The position numbers were made by a program, and so were the translations under genes. From IMG/VR virus record IMGVR_UViG_3300024255_002709, positions 1-59,056 of that record: DNA of 59,056 bases. The stretch is one strand, 5' to 3'. Of this stretch, positions 26,175 to 39,279 are shown piece after piece (position 1 is the stretch's first letter; every line of letters begins with the position of its first letter). This DNA is from a virus. The notes beneath the pieces were generated by a model that worked only from the letters and a program-made list of their open reading frames with translations, was not told the DNA's origin and did not search any database.

Positions 26175-29100
26175 TTATCCACAATATAGATATCCGTACA
26201 CGCCTTCCATTTTACCATTAGAATCCCACGAAGATGATTCCATAGATTTTGCTACTGTATAAGAACATTGTGATTGTCTTTCTTCGTAAATTGGAGTAGA
26301 ATCTCCATTAAATCCTGTTACTACCCATTCAGATGGTTGTTTCATTAAATAACCAGGAGTATCTGAAGAACAAAGTAAATCACCAGGTACAACATCACCA
26401 CCTTGATTACACATTTTAAATCCTGTTAAACTAAAGTAAGAACCGGATACATTCCATTCAATACTATCCCCAAGAGATGCTACTCTCCATATTTCTTTTG
26501 AACCAGTTTCATTATTTGGTAAATAATTACCAAATGAATCTAAATATGATGCGGATACCATTTCTTCTGATGCTGTATAAGGAGTGTATCCATCCTCTAC
26601 GGAACCAGTTATTAGGTTTGTTATTTTTAATTCATATTTTTCCCAAAGAATACCAACCACCGATGTATCTTTTGCTGATGATACTTTTATAAGTTCATTA
26701 TTTGAATCTACTTTTACTAAATCACCTCTTGAAATATTTTCCGATATTCTCTTTTTATATGCGTGTCCTAATGTTACAACTTGGTCTAATTTTGCAGACA
26801 TATTATGTGAAAGTATTCCATCTGAAATATAATTATGCACTACATCTAATTCATAATTCCAAACCTCAACTTCTTCATCAAAAGTTTCTATACTTTTTAT
26901 TTTATCAATAATTAATCTTCCATCATCATAAACATACAACTCACCACCAACTCCGAGTTTATCAACAGAAATTTCACAATTAGGATAATCAGGATGATAT
27001 AGTAAATGTGAATTAGAACATTTTAACTTTTTACCTAATTCTGTTTCTATCTTACTCCATCCTTGTACTTTATTAGTAATAATTTCATCAATAGATGACC
27101 ATCCCCATTCTTTGGTTTCAAAGTTAAATATTTTGATTACATCATCTTCTTTTGTATCTTCTACATTTATCTCACCTCTTTTAGAAATTATTTTAGTACC
27201 AGGTAATACACAAGAAACGGAATCTCTAACATCAATCCTGGTAAAGTTACTACTAATAGTAGTAAATCGACTCCCGATTCCAGTTGATGAAGTACCGATA
27301 CCAATATCGTCCCTTATTCTAAGAGTACCCTCTGAAGAAAATGAAAATGCACTTCCAAAAGTAGAGCGGCTAGTTCCACTACCAATTTTTGCAGCTGTCC
27401 TTATAACCAGTCCATCATCATCAACATCAAATATATCACCAAATGGTCGAATATTACTACCACCCTTTAATTTAGATTTTGTTGTATCTTGTACAAAGTT
27501 ACCAGATGTATCAATATAGAAACCAGCTGCAGATATAAAACCACTACTTCCAATTGTTATACTACCTGCTGATGTAAAGTCTCCACTACTTCCTTTATCA
27601 CCACTATATAACGAATCTGAATCAATCTTCCATGCACCCACAGTACCAGCAGTTGCTGTAACTCTATTTACATCTAATGTAGAAGAACTATGGTCCCAAG
27701 TTAATGCACCATTAGTACCTCCAAGATAAAAATCTCCATTATTAGCCATGTAACTTTTAAACTCACTACCATCGTGGTATCCCATGTAGGCAGATGTTAA
27801 ATTTAACCCTGCTGCTGCAGTATTAGTTGCTAATGTAAACCCATTACCACCAAATGAATAACTTGATGGGTTTGGGTCTCCCGCTGACCAAGCAGCTGAA
27901 TTGTTACTAATGGTTTGGTTGGCAGCATCGGCAGCATCTTTTGCAGCTGATGCGGAAAGAGCAGCATTTCCTGATGCCGTAGTTGCAAAACTTTCAGCAT
28001 TTTGTTGAGCGGCAGAAGCGGAAGCGGCGGCTCCTGCTCCAAAATCTTCTAAAGTAGTTGAACCTGCTGCAATTGTCATAGTACCAGTCATTGATAAGTC
28101 ACCATTTGAATCAAATGATAATTTATCTCCAAGTGAAAATTGCCCATCACTATCAATATAAAGTTGAGTGTTTGAGTTTCCAAAATCTCCTGCTCCTGTT
28201 CCTGTTCCTGTTACTACTTTGAATGCAGTACTTGTTACAGATACAGGTCCAATTGTTGCTGAGTTCATTACAGCATCTCCACTCATGTTTACACTAAATG
28301 GAGCATCACTAAATGTAGCATCACCTAATTGAATACCACTAGTACCTGCTTTGAATATATCATCACCAGTACCAATAGTTACTGAACCACCAAATGTACC
28401 TGTTGCTGCTGATATATCACCACTAAATGAAGCATTACCATCGGATTCGATTTTAAATTGTTGAGCATGAATCGAACCAGAATCTAAATTAATTGCCATA
28501 CCTGCTGCAGCATAACCAGTTGTATCTGAAATTCCATTAGTTGTACCAGAAGCTGAATCATTCCAATTTGTAGATATAATCCTACCAGTTGAAATATTAT
28601 CTCCATGGATTGCCGTTGTACCAGTAGTTCCAAATGATAATGCATTTCCACTACCATTTGAAACCGAATCATCTGCGGTAAACGTTACTAAACCAGTAAA
28701 TCCAATTGCTTGTTGAGCATCACCAAAGGTTGGTGTACCTGTTCCACCTCCAGCAGTTGTTTCAACAACAGAATAGGTTGAGTACCAATATTTATTATCA
28801 TTACCACCTGAATATGTTGGTGCACCCAATCCCCAATCAGCGGTTAAACTAGTAAATGTACCATTAGAAAAAGTATATGAAGTTGCACTTGGTGTAGCTG
28901 GTTGAGTTGAACCAGTTTCTTGATAATGAATCATTCCAGTTGCAGTTCTCTTACCATCAGCACCAGTTATTGATTCACCTTGAACTGCAACTCCTACATT
29001 GACTGTAATTGTTTTACCTGTAAGTGTAGTTCCTTCTGAATTGGTGTAACTTAGTGTTACAACGGAAGTTGTACCATCACCATTACTTGGTTTAGTTGGT

Positions 29101-32100
29101 GTAATCGTTCCATTATTATTATTTGTTCCATTTGTTACACCAGTAATTCTAAATTGTTCTTTGGCTATTGGGCTACCAGGAAAATAATAGTCATAATCAG
29201 AACCACCTTGATTTACAATAATACTTACTGCAGATGGAGTACCAACTGTACTAAAATTCGCATTTGAATCCACCGTTTGTGCTTGTGGATTTGCAGATAT
29301 TAGTACAGTTGGTGTTGCACTTAGAGATTTAGATAAAGTAAATTTAATAGTTGTTGTATCAGCAGTTCCTTCGTTATCTTTAAATGCAATACTAGCAGTA
29401 CCAGTTGCAGAATCTCCTGTAAATCCTGTAACATCTATTGTAGATGTACTTGGAGTTGTATCTGCAACAGTTACACCAGTTACATTAGTTATTTTATATT
29501 GACCTGCAGTAAGTGTTCCTTGATTATATGTTAAAGCAGTATTACCATCAAACCCATCTATCCTTACATCGGTAATACTACTATTTAAACTACCAACCGA
29601 ATCTGCATCAATTGTTTGAGCTGCTGGTGTTACTGAGAAATTTGTATTTGGTTGAGCTACCCTAACTCGTGATACGGTTGCTTCAATTGTTTTAGTACCA
29701 CTAGTTCCCTCACCATCTGTAAAGTTTACTGGTATTGATGCAGTTCCTGTATCTGATGTCATATCAGATGCATCTGAAGTAAATGTGAAAAGTTTAGTTG
29801 AATCATCACCACTTCCAGTAAGTCCTCCAGTAAAGGAAATTGTACCAAATGATGTAAATCTATTTGTACCACCTTCTCTTGCATCAATCTTTAATGAACT
29901 TGGTACATCCGAACCACTACCAACTGAATTTGCGTTAATTGTTTGTGCTTGAGGTGTTACAAAAACTTCCACATTTGGAACGGCAGCAGTTGCTTTTGAA
30001 AAACTAAATTTAACTTCTTGTGTTCCAAGTGTTCCTTCAAAATCTTTAAAAGAAATAGAAGCTATACCTATTGCAGAATTTCCACTAAATGAAGTTACAT
30101 CTATTGTAGATGTACTTGGAGTTGTATCTGCAACAGTTACACCAGTTACATCAGTTATTTTAAATTCACCTGCAGCAAGAGTTCCTTGATTATATGTTAA
30201 CTCTGTATTACCATCTGCACCCTTTATAGTTATATCAGTAATATTACTATTTAAACTACCCAATGAATCTGCATCTATTGTTTGTGCTTGTGGGTCTGCT
30301 TTAAAGTTTGAACTTGGTTGTGCCTTTCTTACTCGTGTAACAACCACCTGTACATCTTTTTGACCAAGTGTTCCTTCTCCATCTGTAAATTTTACAGGAA
30401 TTAGAATAGTACCTGTATCATCAGTCATATCAGATGCAGTTGATGTAATAGATAATGTGTTTGAAGATATAGAACCCGTTAACCCATTACTAAATGTTGG
30501 AGTGTGTATTGAAGTAAATCTATCCGTACCTCCTTCAGTTGCTTTAACTAAAATATTTTGTGGAGTTGCTGAACCACTACCTAGTGAGTTAGCTTCTATT
30601 GTTTGTGCCAATGGTCTACCAGAAACTTCTACGTTTGGTTGACCAACTCTTGTTCTTGAAATAGTAGATACAATAGTTTTAGTACCTTGAGTACCTTCAC
30701 TATCAGTAAAGATTACAGGTATTGTTATTGTTTCAGTATCCGATGTCATATCAGATGCAGAATCTGTAATCACAATAGTATTTGTAGATATAGAACCCGT
30801 TAATCCCCCACTATATGTTGGATTACCAATTGAATCAAATCGTGAAGTACCACCCTCGGTTGCACTTAATGTTAAGTTAGTTGGTGTTGCTGAACCAGAA
30901 CCTCTTGAGTTTCCAGCAATTGTTTGTGCAATAGGAGAAACAGCAAGTTCTATATTTGGTACAGAATTTTTAGCTTTAGTATAGGATACTATTTTTTGAA
31001 ATGATTGAGATGTTGCATTATCACCTGCAAGATATTCAATATTTAATGTTAAAGAACCACTATCCTTAGTGTTTGAAAACGCAGATATTCCATATGAATT
31101 TGAAGTTGGTGATGTACTGATAGGAGTTACATTAGTACCACTAACACTTGTTATATCAAATGTATTTTTTGCTCTACCATCTCCTACATCATCATGTGTT
31201 ATTTGTGAAGAACCAATATTCATTTGAACAGTTCCTACCGATGATGCCAAACCACCAATTACAACACCAGTTGATTTTGCTGGAAATGTTGTGGATTCGT
31301 TTGATAGTACAAGTGAAACTGCATCAAAGTTAATTACTTTAGATAATGTGATTTCATCCGATTGTTTATTACCAAAAACATCAGAACCTGTAAATGAATA
31401 TGTTACCTCATCAAAGTTATTTGATGCAAATGATGCAGAGAACTGATTAGATGTTATACTATATGAATCAATACCATTTACAGTTTCTACAAAATTAAGT
31501 GGTGGTCTATTACTTCCACTATTTACTTCAATTGGTGTTATCAATGAAGCTAAGTTTTTTCTTTGTGCTCTTACAGTTATACTTTGTCCACTTGGTTTTG
31601 AAGAAAGAGTTGTTGGTTCATATGTAAATTGATTTGCATTAGAAGTTACAATAAGTTGAGGTGCATTATCACCATCTTCTAATCTATATACAGTTTCGAA
31701 TTCTTGTTCACTTTCCAAAGAAGCAGTATAAACAACAGAACCTACAAATGGTTCATATAATCCATCTGTTCTTGAACCAGTAAAGTTGTTAATAGTAATA
31801 ATACCACCTGCAGGATTTACACTTGTTAGTAAACCTGGATATTGTGTATAATCACTAGGATTTAAATAGTTACCATCCGTATCAAATGCAGATGATTCAA
31901 ATAAAGTAGAACCTGTTAAGTTGTTCTGTGTTAGTTTAAATTGTATTTGTTGTCCTTTTGGATTTTGTACTGAACCACTTGAGAATCTAAATGCGTTTCT
32001 ATCAGATTCAAATGTTAGTAACTTAGCACTCGTTGGAAAGTCATTACCACCATCAAATACACCAACTGCTAATACATCAACAGGTATGTAATTATTATTT

Positions 32101-33650
32101 ATATCATAAAACTCAAATTTAAAATCAAAAGTTTCTGATATTGTTTTTCTTGGTATATCTTGTATTAAAGTAAACTCATCTGGTGAAAATGATGTATCTT
32201 GTGCATTTCTTAAAGATGCATTTGAAATATACCAATCATCTCCTTGTACTTCAAATACTAATTTTGCATCACCTGTATTTTCTGATATTATATTTTGAGA
32301 TACCGATTGTCTTGCTCTATAAATTGCAGAACCATCGATTGTTAAAAAGTTTTGTGTAAAATTAGATGAACTAAAATATGCAGTAATACTCTTATCGGTA
32401 TCATCGAGAGCCCCACTTAATATTGTTTTAAAGTTAAGTGTATATTCTACATCTTTAGATACTGAAAGTGATTGTGATGTTATTAATTTTTGAACTCCAC
32501 CAGCAGTAGTATTATAATCGAATTTTAATGCTTGAGATAATGTATCTGAATCTACACTTACTACATGGTCGTTTGAAGAAGTAATCCAATAATTTGAAAG
32601 GTTACTTTCATCAAATCTACCATATGATAATTCAGTATCAGAGTTTGTTGTAATATCTCTAAGTAATTCGGATGATTCTAATTTTGATTCTTGAACGAAT
32701 TGGAAATCACCAACTGCATTTCTTGATTTTCTAAATACCTTAACACGAGCAACATCACCTACAAAAGTTTTAAGTTTTGAAAAATCAATTTTTGCAAAAG
32801 AACCAGTTAATGAAGTTTCTCCAATTACTTGATTTTGAAAATCAGTATAACTTACAGAATAAGAACCAGATTCAAACTCTTCTACGATGTTATTTACAGT
32901 ATATGGTACATCAACAAGAACTTGTTTAGAATTTAATACTTCTATAATTCTAGGAGAATAGTTTAAACCGGCAAGATTAATTACATTTTCATCTACATCA
33001 ACATCCCAAGAACCACTTGTTCTTTCTAAACCATATGATACTCCCGCTCTCCATGTAGATAAATCAGAACCAACATCTGGTACTAGTGCAAATCCATGTA
33101 CATGACCAGTTTCAGTTACGGTTGGAATACTTTTTGAAAATATAGGTTTTATTAACTCTGTAATTTCAACAGTAGGTCTTTTATAGAATCTTACAATACT
33201 TTCGTTTGATAGATTTTTGTTTACTTGAAATGTTTTTTCCCACTTAACATTATAAACACCCTTCCATTCATTTGGTACATCTACTAGAGCTCCAAAAGAA
33301 TCTCTATATTTTTTTAATTCACCAAGTATGGTTATTTTTCCTGCTCCAATTGGAGTATCATCATAGATATGAACTGATATTAATTTAGATGTACCTTCAT
33401 AATATTCTGGTACACCATTACCAGGTTCAAAGTATATAGGATTTCCTTCTACATCGAGTAACTCTATTTTAACTTCAGAACTTTCTTTTAATTCAGGACA
33501 ACCTTCTATAAGAAATCCATTTTTTCCACCTGTTAATGTTTCCCTAAGTTCAGTAATTTTGAAATATTCCGAATTTGGGTTATCATCATTAACAAATGTT
33601 GAAAAATTAGTAAGATTTTGAAAAGGTGAGAATTTTTTAATAATTGCCAT
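26175..33650 (-). CDS. Giant fibre-like virion protein with Ig-like repeats and a Hint domain
   Basis: 2491 aa, the longest protein here. The N-terminal ~900 residues are beta-rich, Ser/Thr/Asn-rich structural sequence. Six tandem units of ~105-113 residues occupy about 897-1555 (each begins like QPNVEV...PxAQTI and ends ...FTDGEGT...), Ig/cadherin-like in pattern. Then follow Gly/Ser/Thr-rich repeats, including ATAGTVGAWKIDSDSLYSG-type fibre motifs, and a Hint domain at 2147-2283. The C-terminal ~200 residues contain GDLLCSSDTPGYLMKQ, a motif seen in tail-fibre tips and intramolecular-chaperone-type domains. A host-recognition appendage is the likely role. It has its own late-type promoter and an AGGAAA before the start. 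Confidence 0.85.
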   Translation of the reverse strand: MAIIKKFSPFQNLTNFSTFVNDDNPNSEYFKITELRETLTGGKNGFLIEGCPELKESSEVKIELLDVEGNPIYFEPGNGVPEYYEGTSKLISVHIYDDTPIGAGKITILGELKKYRDSFGALVDVPNEWKGVYNVKWEKTFQVNKNLSNESIVRFYKRPTVEITELIKPIFSKSIPTVTETGHVHGFALVPDVGSDLSTWRAGVSYGLERTSGSWDVDVDENVINLAGLNYSPRIIEVLNSKQVLVDVPYTVNNIVEEFESGSYSVSYTDFQNQVIGETSLTGSFAKIDFSKLKTFVGDVARVKVFRKSRNAVGDFQFVQESKLESSELLRDITTNSDTELSYGRFDESNLSNYWITSSNDHVVSVDSDTLSQALKFDYNTTAGGVQKLITSQSLSVSKDVEYTLNFKTILSGALDDTDKSITAYFSSSNFTQNFLTIDGSAIYRARQSVSQNIISENTGDAKLVFEVQGDDWYISNASLRNAQDTSFSPDEFTLIQDIPRKTISETFDFKFEFYDINNNYIPVDVLAVGVFDGGNDFPTSAKLLTFESDRNAFRFSSGSVQNPKGQQIQFKLTQNNLTGSTLFESSAFDTDGNYLNPSDYTQYPGLLTSVNPAGGIITINNFTGSRTDGLYEPFVGSVVYTASLESEQEFETVYRLEDGDNAPQLIVTSNANQFTYEPTTLSSKPSGQSITVRAQRKNLASLITPIEVNSGSNRPPLNFVETVNGIDSYSITSNQFSASFASNNFDEVTYSFTGSDVFGNKQSDEITLSKVINFDAVSLVLSNESTTFPAKSTGVVIGGLASSVGTVQMNIGSSQITHDDVGDGRAKNTFDITSVSGTNVTPISTSPTSNSYGISAFSNTKDSGSLTLNIEYLAGDNATSQSFQKIVSYTKAKNSVPNIELAVSPIAQTIAGNSRGSGSATPTNLTLSATEGGTSRFDSIGNPTYSGGLTGSISTNTIVITDSASDMTSDTETITIPVIFTDSEGTQGTKTIVSTISRTRVGQPNVEVSGRPLAQTIEANSLGSGSATPQNILVKATEGGTDRFTSIHTPTFSNGLTGSISSNTLSITSTASDMTDDTGTILIPVKFTDGEGTLGQKDVQVVVTRVRKAQPSSNFKADPQAQTIDADSLGSLNSNITDITIKGADGNTELTYNQGTLAAGEFKITDVTGVTVADTTPSTSTIDVTSFSGNSAIGIASISFKDFEGTLGTQEVKFSFSKATAAVPNVEVFVTPQAQTINANSVGSGSDVPSSLKIDAREGGTNRFTSFGTISFTGGLTGSGDDSTKLFTFTSDASDMTSDTGTASIPVNFTDGEGTSGTKTIEATVSRVRVAQPNTNFSVTPAAQTIDADSVGSLNSSITDVRIDGFDGNTALTYNQGTLTAGQYKITNVTGVTVADTTPSTSTIDVTGFTGDSATGTASIAFKDNEGTADTTTIKFTLSKSLSATPTVLISANPQAQTVDSNANFSTVGTPSAVSIIVNQGGSDYDYYFPGSPIAKEQFRITGVTNGTNNNNGTITPTKPSNGDGTTSVVTLSYTNSEGTTLTGKTITVNVGVAVQGESITGADGKRTATGMIHYQETGSTQPATPSATSYTFSNGTFTSLTADWGLGAPTYSGGNDNKYWYSTYSVVETTAGGGTGTPTFGDAQQAIGFTGLVTFTADDSVSNGSGNALSFGTTGTTAIHGDNISTGRIISTNWNDSASGTTNGISDTTGYAAAGMAINLDSGSIHAQQFKIESDGNASFSGDISAATGTFGGSVTIGTGDDIFKAGTSGIQLGDATFSDAPFSVNMSGDAVMNSATIGPVSVTSTAFKVVTGTGTGAGDFGNSNTQLYIDSDGQFSLGDKLSFDSNGDLSMTGTMTIAAGSTTLEDFGAGAAASASAAQQNAESFATTASGNAALSASAAKDAADAANQTISNNSAAWSAGDPNPSSYSFGGNGFTLATNTAAAGLNLTSAYMGYHDGSEFKSYMANNGDFYLGGTNGALTWDHSSSTLDVNRVTATAGTVGAWKIDSDSLYSGDKGSSGDFTSAGSITIGSSGFISAAGFYIDTSGNFVQDTTKSKLKGGSNIRPFGDIFDVDDDGLVIRTAAKIGSGTSRSTFGSAFSFSSEGTLRIRDDIGIGTSSTGIGSRFTTISSNFTRIDVRDSVSCVLPGTKIISKRGEINVEDTKEDDVIKIFNFETKEWGWSSIDEIITNKVQGWSKIETELGKKLKCSNSHLLYHPDYPNCEISVDKLGVGGELYVYDDGRLIIDKIKSIETFDEEVEVWNYELDVVHNYISDGILSHNMSAKLDQVVTLGHAYKKRISENISRGDLVKVDSNNELIKVSSAKDTSVVGILWEKYELKITNLITGSVEDGYTPYTASEEMVSASYLDSFGNYLPNNETGSKEIWRVASLGDSIEWNVSGSYFSLTGFKMCNQGGDVVPGDLLCSSDTPGYLMKQPSEWVVTGFNGDSTPIYEERQSQCSYTVAKSMESSSWDSNGKMEGVYGYLYCG
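26802..27212 (-). other. Hint (intein-like/BIL-type) domain within the fibre gene
   Basis: Codes for residues Cys2147 to Asn2283. The first block is CVLPGTKIISKRGEINVED, the penultimate-type His block is NSHLLYHPDYP, and the C-terminal block is VVHNYISDGILSHN. There is no room for a homing endonuclease. The residue after Asn is Met, not Cys/Ser/Thr, with Ser one further on. This fits a bacterial intein-like domain that cleaves or splices poorly rather than a standard intein. Confidence 0.82.
28985..30962 (-). repeat. Six tandem ~110-residue Ig-like units, two alternating subtypes
   Basis: Units start near residues 897, 1003, 1113, 1226, 1333 and 1446 of the fibre. Units 1, 2 and 4 share EGGTxRF and SDASDM-like segments; units 3 and 5 share YNQGTL and VTVADTTPSTSTIDVT almost exactly. 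The alternating order suggests duplication of a two-unit block. Confidence 0.8.
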
Positions 33651-33729: not shown

Positions 33730-33903
33730 ATGGGAAAATACACTACAATACAAGTAAAACGAGAACTATATAAGGAATTACATAATTACTGTTGTGAGAA
33801 TGGTTATTCTAAAAGTGGGTTAATTGAAAGATTAATAAAACAAAGAATCAATCAACCCAATCAACCAAAGCCTACAAATGCTTTAAGAGTTTCTAAAACT
33901 TAA
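33730..33903 (+). CDS. Small ribbon-helix-helix-like DNA-binding protein
   Basis: 57 aa and the only convincing plus-strand gene in the window. It opens with a short strand (YTTIQVKRELYKELHNYC) and continues with GYSKSGLIERLIKQRI, the strand-helix-helix layout and GxSxSxLIxxLI turn of Arc/MetJ-type regulators. The C-terminal tail is Pro/Asn/Gln-rich. RHH proteins bind operators as dimers; a regulator of phage transcription is a plausible role. Its last 11 bases overlap the end of the SbcD-SbcC gene on the opposite strand, and it diverges from the fibre gene. The start follows from the fold beginning a few residues after the ATG. Confidence 0.72.
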   Translation: MGKYTTIQVKRELYKELHNYCCENGYSKSGLIERLIKQRINQPNQPKPTNALRVSKT

Positions 33904-36900: not shown

Positions 36901-37051
36901 CAATATCACCAGCAATATAAATGAGGGAATCCTCAATTTTATCTTCTTTAACTTTTTTTAGGAATTTTTTGAATACTATTCTATATTCTTTGTGCCTTTG
37001 GAGATTTCTAATGTGTAAATCTGCAAGGTGGTAAACCTTATTTATTATCAT
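33893..37051 (-). CDS. sbcDC-like (46/47 fusion): Fused SbcD-SbcC (Mre11-Rad50, T4 gp47-gp46) recombination nuclease
   Basis: 1052 aa. Residues 1-~340 are a calcineurin-like phosphoesterase (Mre11/SbcD) with ADLH (10-13), GDIAH (48-52), GNHD (83-86), His154 and GDIH (187-190). Residues ~375-1052 are a Rad50/SbcC-type SMC ATPase: Walker A APNASGKS (406-413, Ala in place of the first Gly), coiled coils, zinc hook CNIC (~726-729), signature CSGMERFISG near 944 and Walker B FLVIDEGFGTLD near 985-996. It resects DNA ends for recombination-dependent replication. In T4 the two activities are separate genes; here they are one polypeptide. It overlaps the primase gene by 4 bases. Confidence 0.93.
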   Translation of the reverse strand: MIINKVYHLADLHIRNLQRHKEYRIVFKKFLKKVKEDKIEDSLIYIAGDIAHAKTEMSPELVHEISWFLTECAKLRETVLITGNHDCNLNNSHRLDVLTPIIENLGNDRIHYLRDTGVYPIHNLTFVVYSILDNKENWPKGNTVDGENTICLFHGPVNKAQTDIGYTVSSNSFQVDMFDGFDMAMLGDIHKRQTFGPGYEHIAYAGSMVQQNHGELLENHGYLLWDIPTRTFTEHHLHNDYGFLTVDVVNGKIPQWVYDEIDTKLPRYPRLRLRFTKTEASDMKRRITELKKLFKVAEVTVTRTDTIGQLKTNQKVNKNIVGDVKNETFQNQLIRDYLERQYLLEDDELDKIAEINSELNSHIDESDMMGNILWTPKEFQFSNMFSYGEDNKVRFDKAQGIVGIFAPNASGKSSLFDALSFCIYDKTSRTNISKNIINNRKTNFYCKFNFEIDGINYYIERRAKYVRKATSVKVDVDFWRDNNGVIESLNGEQRKDTNKEIEKYLGKFEDFVLTALSLQGNNALFIDKSQSERKEILSQFIGVNIFDKLHQKASDENRDNATLIRKFKSDDFTTKLAGIDTDLKSNKNEYKLYEMNQKSLKDEEDVLNKKIISLNEKVVKLNADSGVAIEELEKRFKLLETKRDTIESDKKSTQDRITHREELQITLDEIVDKFDEEELEDGIGKLKDSKDKLRDIESTIDKINIKKDSLYERKDHLDKHKYNEECNICMENSETILQQKEKVEADISHYQELFTDNDKTRLQLMLVIDSLKGYADEWNNYLDAKDKEDKIDREISQLINKLSTIETEELRNKQQISQQEQLIKEYYKNEKQIIKNKEIRTEIQSVREKLNVTKDDLRKVNTEVLKLNGKVSALQNQKETIEDRINEVKEMETQSRLFDFYLNALSKDGVSYELIEKALPMIEGEVNNILAQIVEFGMQLEMDGKNINAYLVYGDQRWSLEMCSGMERFISGLAIRVALINVCNLPRPNFLVIDEGFGTLDSENLQSLFMLFTYLKTQFDFVMIISHIDSMRDVVDDLITIKKEKGFSNVKF

Positions 37052-37992
37052 AAACCTTTTAATTTTTGTGATATAATATCACCGAATCCTGTTTGTTTGG
37101 ATTCTTTTAATTTATTATTTACTTCTGTGAATCCCATATCAGATGCATCTTTATCTGTGGGTTTAATATTTTTTGTAGTGATTCCTTGATTTTGGAATTG
37201 CATAGTATAACGCAATGCTTGTTGTTGAGCATCTTCATCTAATAAGATGTTAATACTTTTTACTTCGTTTTTATAAATAGCTTCATTTAATTTAGTAGGA
37301 ATAAATTTACCTAAAATTGGAATACAATTTCTCTTAACAGCCATTGCATCAAATACACCTTCTACTAATGTTATTGGTTCATTCCAATTTATTTGATTTT
37401 CAAACATGATAACATTCTTCGAAACTGGTGGATTTTTATATTTAAACTTTTCCTCAGGATGTACAGACCTTGCGATGAAGTAATTGAGTCTATTGTCCAA
37501 ATCATAGGAAGGAATGATAATACGATTGGAATACATACCACCATCACAATAACCGATATTGTACTTTGTAATATCTTCTTTAGTAATGCCTCTATCTTCA
37601 GCATACTTAAGAGCCTTTCTGTACACAGGATTTACGTTACCCTCTGGTACTTTTAGAAGTGATTTAAATTCAATTGGTAATCGTAACTCTACTTTTTCTT
37701 CTTCAGTATCTTTTGAGTAAACTATATAATCATCTCCATAGATTTCAAATAACTTTTTTAATCTACGAGCATCTACATGAAGTCTTTTTAATAACCTCTG
37801 TATCTTTCTTCCTTTTGCATCACATACCCAACAATGCCAATATTGTGTTTTTAAGTTAACCTGTAACTTTTTCTTGTGGTGGTGACAGAATGGACAATGA
37901 TGCGCTTGTTCATCATTTTTCATTGGTGTACCAACACCCAATACATCATTTAATATGTTTATAACTTCTTGTCTTTCGTGGTGTGAAAGCAT
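37048..37992 (-). CDS. DnaG-type DNA primase (T4 gp61-like)
   Basis: 314 aa. The N-terminal zinc-binding domain has CPFC (33-36) and CWVC (54-57). The TOPRIM core has LVEGVFDAMAV (Glu211) and ILLDEDAQ (Asp252, Asp254), followed by KDASDMG, giving the acidic metal site that makes RNA primers. The C-terminal helicase-interaction domain is short. It is the first gene of a two-gene unit with the fused nuclease and is preceded by a host-like promoter, pointing to earlier expression than the virion genes. Confidence 0.92.
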   Translation of the reverse strand: MLSHHERQEVINILNDVLGVGTPMKNDEQAHHCPFCHHHKKKLQVNLKTQYWHCWVCDAKGRKIQRLLKRLHVDARRLKKLFEIYGDDYIVYSKDTEEEKVELRLPIEFKSLLKVPEGNVNPVYRKALKYAEDRGITKEDITKYNIGYCDGGMYSNRIIIPSYDLDNRLNYFIARSVHPEEKFKYKNPPVSKNVIMFENQINWNEPITLVEGVFDAMAVKRNCIPILGKFIPTKLNEAIYKNEVKSINILLDEDAQQQALRYTMQFQNQGITTKNIKPTDKDASDMGFTEVNNKLKESKQTGFGDIISQKLKGL

Positions 37993-38012: not shown

Positions 38013-38043
38013 CAAATATACGAAATTAAATTCACATATCCAA
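38013..38043 (-). promoter_or_regulatory. Bacteroidota-type promoter before the primase
   Basis: In gene orientation a TTG box (38041-38043) is separated by exactly 20 bases from TATATTTG (38013-38020), a full match to TAnnTTTG. The leader to the ATG is about 20 bases. The flanks AGAAAAGACTTGGA and TTTCGTATATTT are shared with the promoter at 38258-38288. Confidence 0.72.
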
Positions 38044-38061
38044 GTCTTTTCTTGATTATTT

Positions 38062-38229
38062 TTACATCCAAACTGGCATATTATGATTATCACAAATCCA
38101 TACGCTATCTTTACCCCATAAAGGAATTTGTTTATCTACACTTTTCTGTGCTACTGAGTAATCATCAGTATCCGTTATATGGATGTATGTACCACTTTTA
38201 GGTGTTACTACTTTTACTGTGTATCGCAT
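38062..38229 (-). CDS. Small hypothetical protein (55 aa)
   Basis: 55 aa from ATG at 38229 to TAA at 38062. The start reads MRYTVKVVTPKSGTYIHITD, then DDYSVAQKSVDKQIPLWGKD, and the end is rich in Trp, Asn and His. A small mixed alpha/beta fold is suggested; no family recognised. It has its own host-like promoter 28 bases upstream and lies just before the primase promoter, so it is probably an early or middle gene. The well-placed promoter is the main support. Confidence 0.62.
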   Translation of the reverse strand: MRYTVKVVTPKSGTYIHITDTDDYSVAQKSVDKQIPLWGKDSVWICDNHNMPVWM

Positions 38230-38257
38230 AATTTTACGTTTTAAGTTATTTACATAG

Positions 38258-38288
38258 TAAATATACGAAAAATATTTTAATTTTCCAA
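38258..38288 (-). promoter_or_regulatory. Bacteroidota-type promoter before the 55-aa gene
   Basis: A TTG box (38286-38288) stands 20 bases from TATATTTA (38258-38265). It shares AGAAAAGACTTGGA and TTTCGTATATTT with the primase promoter at identical spacing. The TTG box falls inside the last codons of the GIY-YIG gene. Confidence 0.68.
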
Positions 38289-38723
38289 GTCTTTTCTAAA
38301 AAACTTTCCTAATAAGTTATCATTAAGTGATAACTCATCTCCTAATACGTTGTGTGAGAACTGTTCTTGTAGTTCATAATAGGTTAAAGCTTTCTTTCCT
38401 TTACAAAATCTAAGTATTTCTAACTTTAGTGTATCGTTTATCTCTCCCCTCGGTTCTTCTTGTAGTGCCATCTCGTTTGAATGAAACCAAAGTTGTACTG
38501 AAGCATTTGATGAACGATAATCTAACCACTTAGATTCTTTTACTACTTTTCTTTTTCGTTTATAACCTTTTAATGGCGGTAATGTTCTGTGTGAATATAG
38601 GGATTTTTTCCCAATATAATATTGACCAGTTTCTCCGTTGGTTATTTTGTATATGAATCCGATAGTACCTTCTGGCATATCTGATATCTCTGTTATACAT
38701 TTTCCTTTATATGTCCATCCCAT
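38277..38723 (-). CDS. GIY-YIG nuclease-like protein
   Basis: 148 aa when started at the ATG at 38723 (MGWTYKGK...). An earlier ATG at 38744 would add seven residues but overlap the sulfotransferase gene by 38 bases. GFIYKITNGETGQYYIGKKS near 21-40 matches the GIY-YIG core with its two short strands, and the basic stretch after it (LKGYKRKRKVV) would contact DNA. T4-like phages commonly carry a similar protein that is not inside an intron. A DNA-processing or host-DNA-directed role is inferred; homing activity is not suggested by the context. Its last codons hold the -33 box of the next promoter. Confidence 0.75.
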   Translation of the reverse strand: MGWTYKGKCITEISDMPEGTIGFIYKITNGETGQYYIGKKSLYSHRTLPPLKGYKRKRKVVKESKWLDYRSSNASVQLWFHSNEMALQEEPRGEINDTLKLEILRFCKGKKALTYYELQEQFSHNVLGDELSLNDNLLGKFFRKDLEN

Positions 38724-39279
38724 AGTTAAAAATCTTGAAATCATTATAATACCTCTCTCTAACCCACTCTTTCATCCACTCTTCAGAATACAAATATTTG
38801 TAGTATTTATGTTGATTTAAGTTAGGGTGTTTTTCGTAAATTGGATTACGGTTTATATGAGGAATATCTTCTTTTATATTTAATTTATTAAAAACATAAT
38901 CAGTATCTTCTTTAAAGTTTTCATATCTACCAATAAAGGTCATTTCTTTATCATTGGAATCTATCTGATGTGTGTAGTATGATTGGTTCAAAAACCACAA
39001 ATCATATGCATTTGCATTTTTTAAAAAATGCTCAAAACTCATATGTTGTGTTTTTCTAGTTTCATGAAAGTATGCTGATGCTATTCTTGTGAATGGATTT
39101 CTCACAAAAGTAAATTTAAAATATTCCACCATGTTATACTCTAATATTCTTAGAGAATCGTGACCGGCAGGATTAGTAGTATTTGGTTGAACTCTTAATA
39201 CCTGAGAAATACTTGTACCACCTGTTTTAGGAATATGAACATATGCCCATTTATCCTTCGAGTTAATGTATAAACCCAA
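38707..39279 (-). CDS. Sulfotransferase family protein
   Basis: 190 aa. The 5'-phosphosulfate loop is HIPKTGGTSI (15-24), and the 3'-phosphate motif is TFVRNPFTRIASAYF (57-71), so PAPS binding is well supported. FIGRYENFKED at about 125-135 is typical of carbohydrate sulfotransferases. It would transfer sulfate to a hydroxyl group, probably of a glycan. It lies between two structural-type genes and the GIY-YIG gene, about 13 kb from the main glycan cluster. It follows the small gene at 39291-39470 by 11 bases and probably shares its late-type promoter. Confidence 0.88.
   Translation of the reverse strand: MGLYINSKDKWAYVHIPKTGGTSISQVLRVQPNTTNPAGHDSLRILEYNMVEYFKFTFVRNPFTRIASAYFHETRKTQHMSFEHFLKNANAYDLWFLNQSYYTHQIDSNDKEMTFIGRYENFKEDTDYVFNKLNIKEDIPHINRNPIYEKHPNLNQHKYYKYLYSEEWMKEWVRERYYNDFKIFNYGMDI

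Follow-up and report, generated by a model that had tools for sequence, protein, structure and literature searches.

Two near-identical candidate early promoters of a very large phage, probably of Bacteroidota, one of them at a recombination joint inside a GIY-YIG gene

In the promoter/stem-loop (PeSL) mobile regulatory cassettes of T4-type phages, small genes are gained and lost at early promoter sequences, which form the joints. The T4 early promoters have been described as 'uber' UP/-35/TGn/-10 promoters (PMC2988021). The promoters of Bacteroidota hosts have a weak -33 element and variable spacing (PMC6847099, PMC7366714), and the -7 consensus TAHHTTTG has been derived from F. johnsoniae RNA-seq (PMC6847099).

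The window analyzed here is a 59-kb virus record, IMGVR_UViG_3300024255_002709 (59,056 nucleotides). The sequence AGAAAAGACTTGGA-N13-TTTCGTATATTT was found twice on its minus strand, once upstream of a primase gene (copy A, 38052-38014, with the 14-base box at 38052-38039 and TTTCGTATATTT at 38025-38014) and once upstream of a 55-aa gene (copy B, 38297-38259, with the box at 38297-38284 and TTTCGTATATTT at 38270-38259). Both copies are 39 nt long in total, their boxes are separated by 13 nt, and both read TTG-N20-TATATTTR, exactly as the initial annotation had claimed for two near-identical promoters with a fixed 20-base spacing; the span it gave for them, 38013-38288, holds real copies but ends short of copy B, which reaches 38297. 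The gene downstream of copy A encodes a DnaG-type DNA primase (37048..37992, minus strand; PHROG 47, Pfam DNAG_N), and no family was found for the 55-aa ORF (38062..38229, minus strand). Upstream of the latter lies the gene of a SegE-like GIY-YIG protein (38277..38744, minus strand; Pfam PF19835, E 2e-22), the end of which reads ..FF-RKDLEN-stop. Copy B lies inside this end, as had been noticed from the sequence, and its 14-base box (38284..38297, minus strand) doubles as codons for RKDL(E). No third box with one mismatch or less was present in the window, the best other match having two mismatches (40952-40939). Copies A and B were also the only credible members of the early motif described below, the lower-scoring matches falling within genes.

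The elements of the two copies were numbered with the final base of TATATTTG as -5, following F. johnsoniae (PMC6847099), and the start site of promoter A was set by the -7-to-start distance in that species together with the purine peak of a sequence logo of related sites. Promoter A is predicted to consist of two UP-element-like A-tracts, AAAAATAA and AGAAAA (38047..38063, minus strand), which have counterparts in the 130-site logo and in the chromosomal copies from Bacteroidota; the 14-base box, which by sequence and logo comprises the proximal A-tract and the -33 element CTTGGA (38039..38052, minus strand); and TTTCG followed by the -7 element TATATTTG (38013..38025, minus strand). Its predicted +1 is at about 38008, leaving a leader of 16 nt to the primase ATG (37992). 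In promoter B, TTTCG and the -7 element TATATTTA (38258..38270, minus strand) are followed by a predicted +1 at about 38253 and a predicted 24-nt leader to the 55-aa ORF (start 38229). The -7 element of A fits TAnnTTTG (TAHHTTTG), and that of B fits save for one mismatch at the last base. TTG stands at -33, N20 from the -7 element, in A, in B and in nearly all of the sites found genome-wide, and the Bacteroidota-type TTG/TAnnTTTG reading made at the outset was thus upheld by the -7 fit, the spacing and the genome-wide copies. A scan of the region for sigma-70-type promoters gave matches no more numerous than in shuffled sequence.

Searches with the primase and with an SbcC-type protein recovered about 80 related loci each, and some of the records are 276-289 kb long; one strand of the window bears nearly all genes. 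The window is a piece of a phage of about 280 kb. The initial annotation had called for a search of the genome and of related phages for further copies of the box, and this search yielded dozens of copies per relative genome, in early-type regions, the opposite of the absence that it had named as a refutation. With a threshold score of at least 15 of 18, the near-full-length relatives G001-G003 contained 33, 49, and 47 sites on the coding strand versus 0, 1, and 3 on the opposite strand, and G004 contained 22 versus 0. In the three long relatives a TTGGA-like box stood exactly 13 nt upstream of 86 of the 96 sense -7 boxes that had one mismatch or less; such pairs were nearly absent from the opposite strand and from a reversed control, and no second spacing recurred. 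A pattern scan of viral contigs that allowed gaps of 8-14 nt returned 41 contigs, all with a gap of exactly 13. At 82% of the sites the predicted start had an ORF-opening ATG no more than 60 nt away, compared with 35% of random positions, and the leader from site to start codon was usually 13-35 nt. The sites crowd regions of small genes and are sparse in regions of long genes. Since copy B is coding, the repeat might have been a coincidence, with the coding constraint on RKDLE producing one copy and chance or a recent duplication the other; the dozens of independent copies per genome, together with the rigid 13-nt spacing in 41 contigs and 86/96 boxes, contradict this reading and leave it exceedingly improbable. 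A subclass of promoters with TATRTTAG at -7 and the common leader GCTTTGTAATAAGAGATAAA was also seen in G002 and G003 (loci L208-L237).

Beyond the positions used for selection, the logo contained about 14 bits of information, located in the A-tracts, the AT before TTGGA, the spacer, and the start region. Two A-tracts, spanning roughly -54 to -49 and -42 to -39, come first in it, followed by ATTTGGA (-37 to -31), a spacer rich in A and T, TTTCG (-17 to -13), and TATMTTTG (-12 to -5); 87% of the sites have a purine at +1. The A-tract positions are those of UP elements, as known from binding of the alpha-CTD. With sigma-ABfr promoters (TTTG at -33, TAnnTTTG at -7) the phage sites share the TTG-N20-TATMTTTG core, a predicted start about 5 nt past the -7 element, and a high AT content around -18 and -28, as F. 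johnsoniae promoters have (PMC6847099); unlike those promoters, they hardly vary in TTTGGA, in TTTCG, in spacer length, or in the pair of A-tracts farther upstream. The resemblance to T4 early promoters lies in an extended consensus that fits the contacts of the host polymerase, UP elements included, in the many copies upstream of early genes, and in the fact that no RNA polymerase of the phage's own was detected. The differences are that the core elements suit another sigma factor and that one phage copy is conserved inside the GIY-YIG gene. UP-type A-tracts and a near-consensus core, in many copies preceding early-type genes, were found here also, and we infer that A and B may function as Bacteroidota counterparts of the T4 early promoters.

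We consider it highly probable that A and B are phage early-class promoters that would be read by unmodified host RNA polymerase carrying the Bacteroidota primary sigma factor, sigma-ABfr. Each would represent a 'super-consensus' host promoter: the -33 element is TTTGGA and the -7 element TATMTTTG, the 20-nt spacer between them is constrained and closes with TTTCG, transcription would begin at a purine, and the two A-tracts at UP positions would offer contacts for the alpha C-terminal domains. Such promoters would let the early genes compete for polymerase once the DNA enters. The host is predicted to be a member of the Bacteroidota, and transcription, timing, sigma and alpha-CTD contacts, and promoter strength are likewise predictions from sequence, the early timing being read from the gene neighborhood alone.

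A search of genome contigs (84,980 genomes of bacteria and archaea) with the exact extended core gave 63 matches, nearly all in Bacteroidota. The Bacteroidota copies, some of them possibly on phage or plasmid contigs, repeated the A-tracts at positions that had not been selected. Because these rare exact chromosomal copies have the same A-tracts, the host holoenzyme is the simplest reader, and the evidence favors the ordinary holoenzyme over a phage activator as the likely partner of these sites. In six host genomes, the counts of the extended motif at up to three mismatches were not above those of the reversed control; the extended motif is not the usual host promoter, and because the host counts do not exceed the control, there is room for a phage factor that prefers the motif. 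Profile searches of four phage records, which divergent proteins can escape, gave no match to sigma70 region 2 or RNAP beta.

The initial annotation had suggested that the 14-base box, being longer than a host -33 element, is an operator or activator site. In line with this, a phage activator or repressor, either MotA-like or the 57-aa RHH-like protein, might bind the box and place A and B in a middle or otherwise regulated class that is not directly read by the host enzyme. The gene of the 57-aa protein (33730..33903, plus strand; RHH_1, E 6.5e-4, just under its cut-off) opposes all of its neighbors, and the same place and counter-orientation are kept in related loci. Its conservation at a fixed place would suit such a binder, as would a motif that is tighter than host promoters, fixed in spacing, and rare in host chromosomes. 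A short inverted repeat that surrounds the start site, TTTAC-N3-GTAAA or a variant of it, points the same way, with 16 exact occurrences versus 3 in shuffles among the 128 sites of G001-G003; in 323 nonredundant sites, however, just the innermost pairs exceeded expectation, and because this larger set raises the innermost pairs alone, the repeat stays a weak lead. When 121-130 sites were compared, what proved conserved was TTTGGA together with two A-tracts at UP-element distances. This conserved part coincides with the -33, -7, and UP elements, and the same A-tracts recur in the chromosomal copies from Bacteroidota. The host-type -33 sequence TTTGG is present as the most conserved part of the box, that is, it is not replaced as in a T4 MotA box. 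The additional bases of the box in copy B are codons for RKDLE, a nearly invariant motif of the GIY-YIG C-terminus. Orthologous primase promoters that do not share this coding role read AAAATAAATTTGGA or AAAAATAATTTGGA, among others, with an upstream part that is just A-rich, and the nine bases upstream of TTGGA differ among relatives where they are noncoding. Comparison of related loci revealed no link between the 57-aa gene and the box, and a search for MotA found no match in the phages, although it was equally silent in every control genome and so lacked a positive control. The operator reading was not supported; the box is best read as a -33 element plus an A-tract with no separate operator, and binding by a dedicated phage protein appears unlikely.

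The early promoters are ordinary in kind, being host-type, and unusual in degree: super-consensus, genome-wide, rigid, embedded in coding sequence, and recombining. The collected sites amount to a sequence-level map of the early program in a widespread, uncultured group of very large Bacteroidota phages, and they provide candidates for very strong promoters for use in Bacteroidota.

The recombining character was examined at copy B. Up to promoter B the window and L004 were 98-100% identical; the cassette carrying the 55-aa gene, which follows in the window, is missing from L004. Compared with L051, the identity was about 57-79% upstream of the joint and 61% in the spacer of promoter B, before rising to 99-100% at the TTTCGTATATTT core and throughout the cassette. 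Because the identity to L004 ends and that to L051 begins there, the left joint of the cassette lies inside promoter B, and copy B is a recombination joint at which an L004-like backbone meets an L051-like cassette; the right joint falls within the first part of the primase gene. The 55-aa protein had 100% amino acid matches only in L038/L182 and L051/L187 and was absent from the nearest relatives, L004-L006. With promoter B in the last GIY-YIG codons and promoter A before the primase, the sequence common to both would form a joint for the gain and loss of accessory genes, and the promoters would serve in this second capacity as well. As in PeSL cassettes, the joint is a phage early promoter sequence at which small genes come and go; unlike them, it has no established conserved stem-loop, and its left copy is within coding sequence. 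A hairpin upstream of B had a z score of -2.2 and by inspection was not obviously kept in relatives, and the region contained no terminator-like site.

Among 66 distinct loci, the promoter was located 38-62 nt upstream of the primase in 62 and overlapped the GIY-YIG 3' end in 59, and the gap between the two genes was below 60 nt in 31, 60-200 nt in 18, and larger in 17. Among the inserts found between them are genes for 2OG-Fe(II) oxygenases and for a GDSL-like hydrolase (a weak match), besides genes of unknown type; the idea that the cassettes are homing endonucleases was rejected, as those identified were the oxygenases and the hydrolase. The repeat could also be chiefly a recombination site or the end of a mobile cassette, its likeness to a promoter being secondary, given that a cassette boundary falls inside it and that relatives have varied genes between the two copies. 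Most copies genome-wide are nevertheless single, oriented with a gene and just upstream of its start codon, and only a promoter explains the spacing and the purine at +1, which makes this alternative very improbable. The interval from GIY-YIG to primase is an accessory-gene hotspot, often flanked by early promoters (L008, L036, L040, L049, L054-L056, L078).

A second motif class was found in these genomes. TATATTTATA was enriched in the long-gene regions, and ATATTTATA occurred 51/6, 48/4, 34/5, 37/4, and 28/3 times in sense/antisense orientation in five records and 12 times versus once in the window, where its minus-strand sites include 58966, 56703, 48986, 43305, 40666, 39502, 33682, 25168, 25139, and 437. 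It stands about 20 nt upstream of ORFs of large or structural genes, such as those for the 1872-aa and 2491-aa proteins, the latter (26175-33650, minus strand) with a weak intein-splicing match (E 5e-4, below cut-off). T4-type late promoters have the sequence TATAAATA, which the phage ATATTTATA resembles. By this likeness and its position, ATATTTATA would constitute a late promoter class, with late timing as a further prediction.

The two classes differed in their Shine-Dalgarno (SD) signals, scored as GGAG or AGGA at -16 to -4 in G001-G004 and G006 (loci L194-L237 and L436-L453). The results showed that an SD preceded 71 of 161 late-motif genes (44%) versus 5 of 133 early-motif genes (4%; Fisher p ~4e-17). 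The first three genomes gave 47/97 late versus 2/105 early, with positions peaking at -14 to -11, and the smaller G004 and G006 had the same direction, each alone being non-significant. The baselines were 20/335 in Bacteroidota loci, 3/211 in Tenacibaculum phage PTm1, and 3.4% in antisense ORFs. No earlier report of an early/late SD split was found in the literature covered, which left out most subscription papers. PTm1, a cultured phage with a known Bacteroidota host, had looser early sites, ten in coding-strand orientation and one in the opposite orientation, just four of which combined 13-nt spacing with a good -7 box; because of these few sites and because it has neither bS21 nor SD signals, it served as a control and not as a close model.

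Bacteroidota ribosomes ignore SD sequences, since bS21, bS18, and bS6 hold the anti-SD and Tyr54 of bS21 stacks on it, and Y54A or truncated bS21 increases the translation of SD messages (PMC9976891). A bS21 gene was present in 8 of 16 related records, including all four longer than 200 kb, and absent from the window fragment. The phage proteins (loci L423-L428, L454, and L455) have basic C-terminal tails and are closer to E. coli bS21, with Lys at position 54, than to that of F. johnsoniae. Position 54 of the alignment was Tyr in 7/7 host copies and Arg in 8/8 phage copies; when host bS21 was aligned with F. johnsoniae 7JIL, the Tyr54 positions coincided. It is quite possible, although we would not call it probable, that these features form a coupled switch from host-type early promoters with SD-less leaders to late ATATTTATA promoters with SD leaders and phage bS21. 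The early leaders would suit Bacteroidota ribosomes, in which Tyr54 helps to conceal the anti-SD, and Arg54 of the phage protein would free the anti-SD and direct ribosomes to the SD-bearing late messages. The SD split, together with a phage bS21 devoid of the blocking Tyr, offers a testable answer to the question of why phages encode bS21. Compared by features, the bS21-encoding Bacteroidetes phages (PMC9723584) and the moraphages (PMC12619734, a paper that makes no mention of bS21) are likewise very large aquatic phages of Bacteroidota. The former also have bS21 near late genes, but all of their bS21 proteins have an aromatic residue at position 54, where the relatives of the window have Arg.
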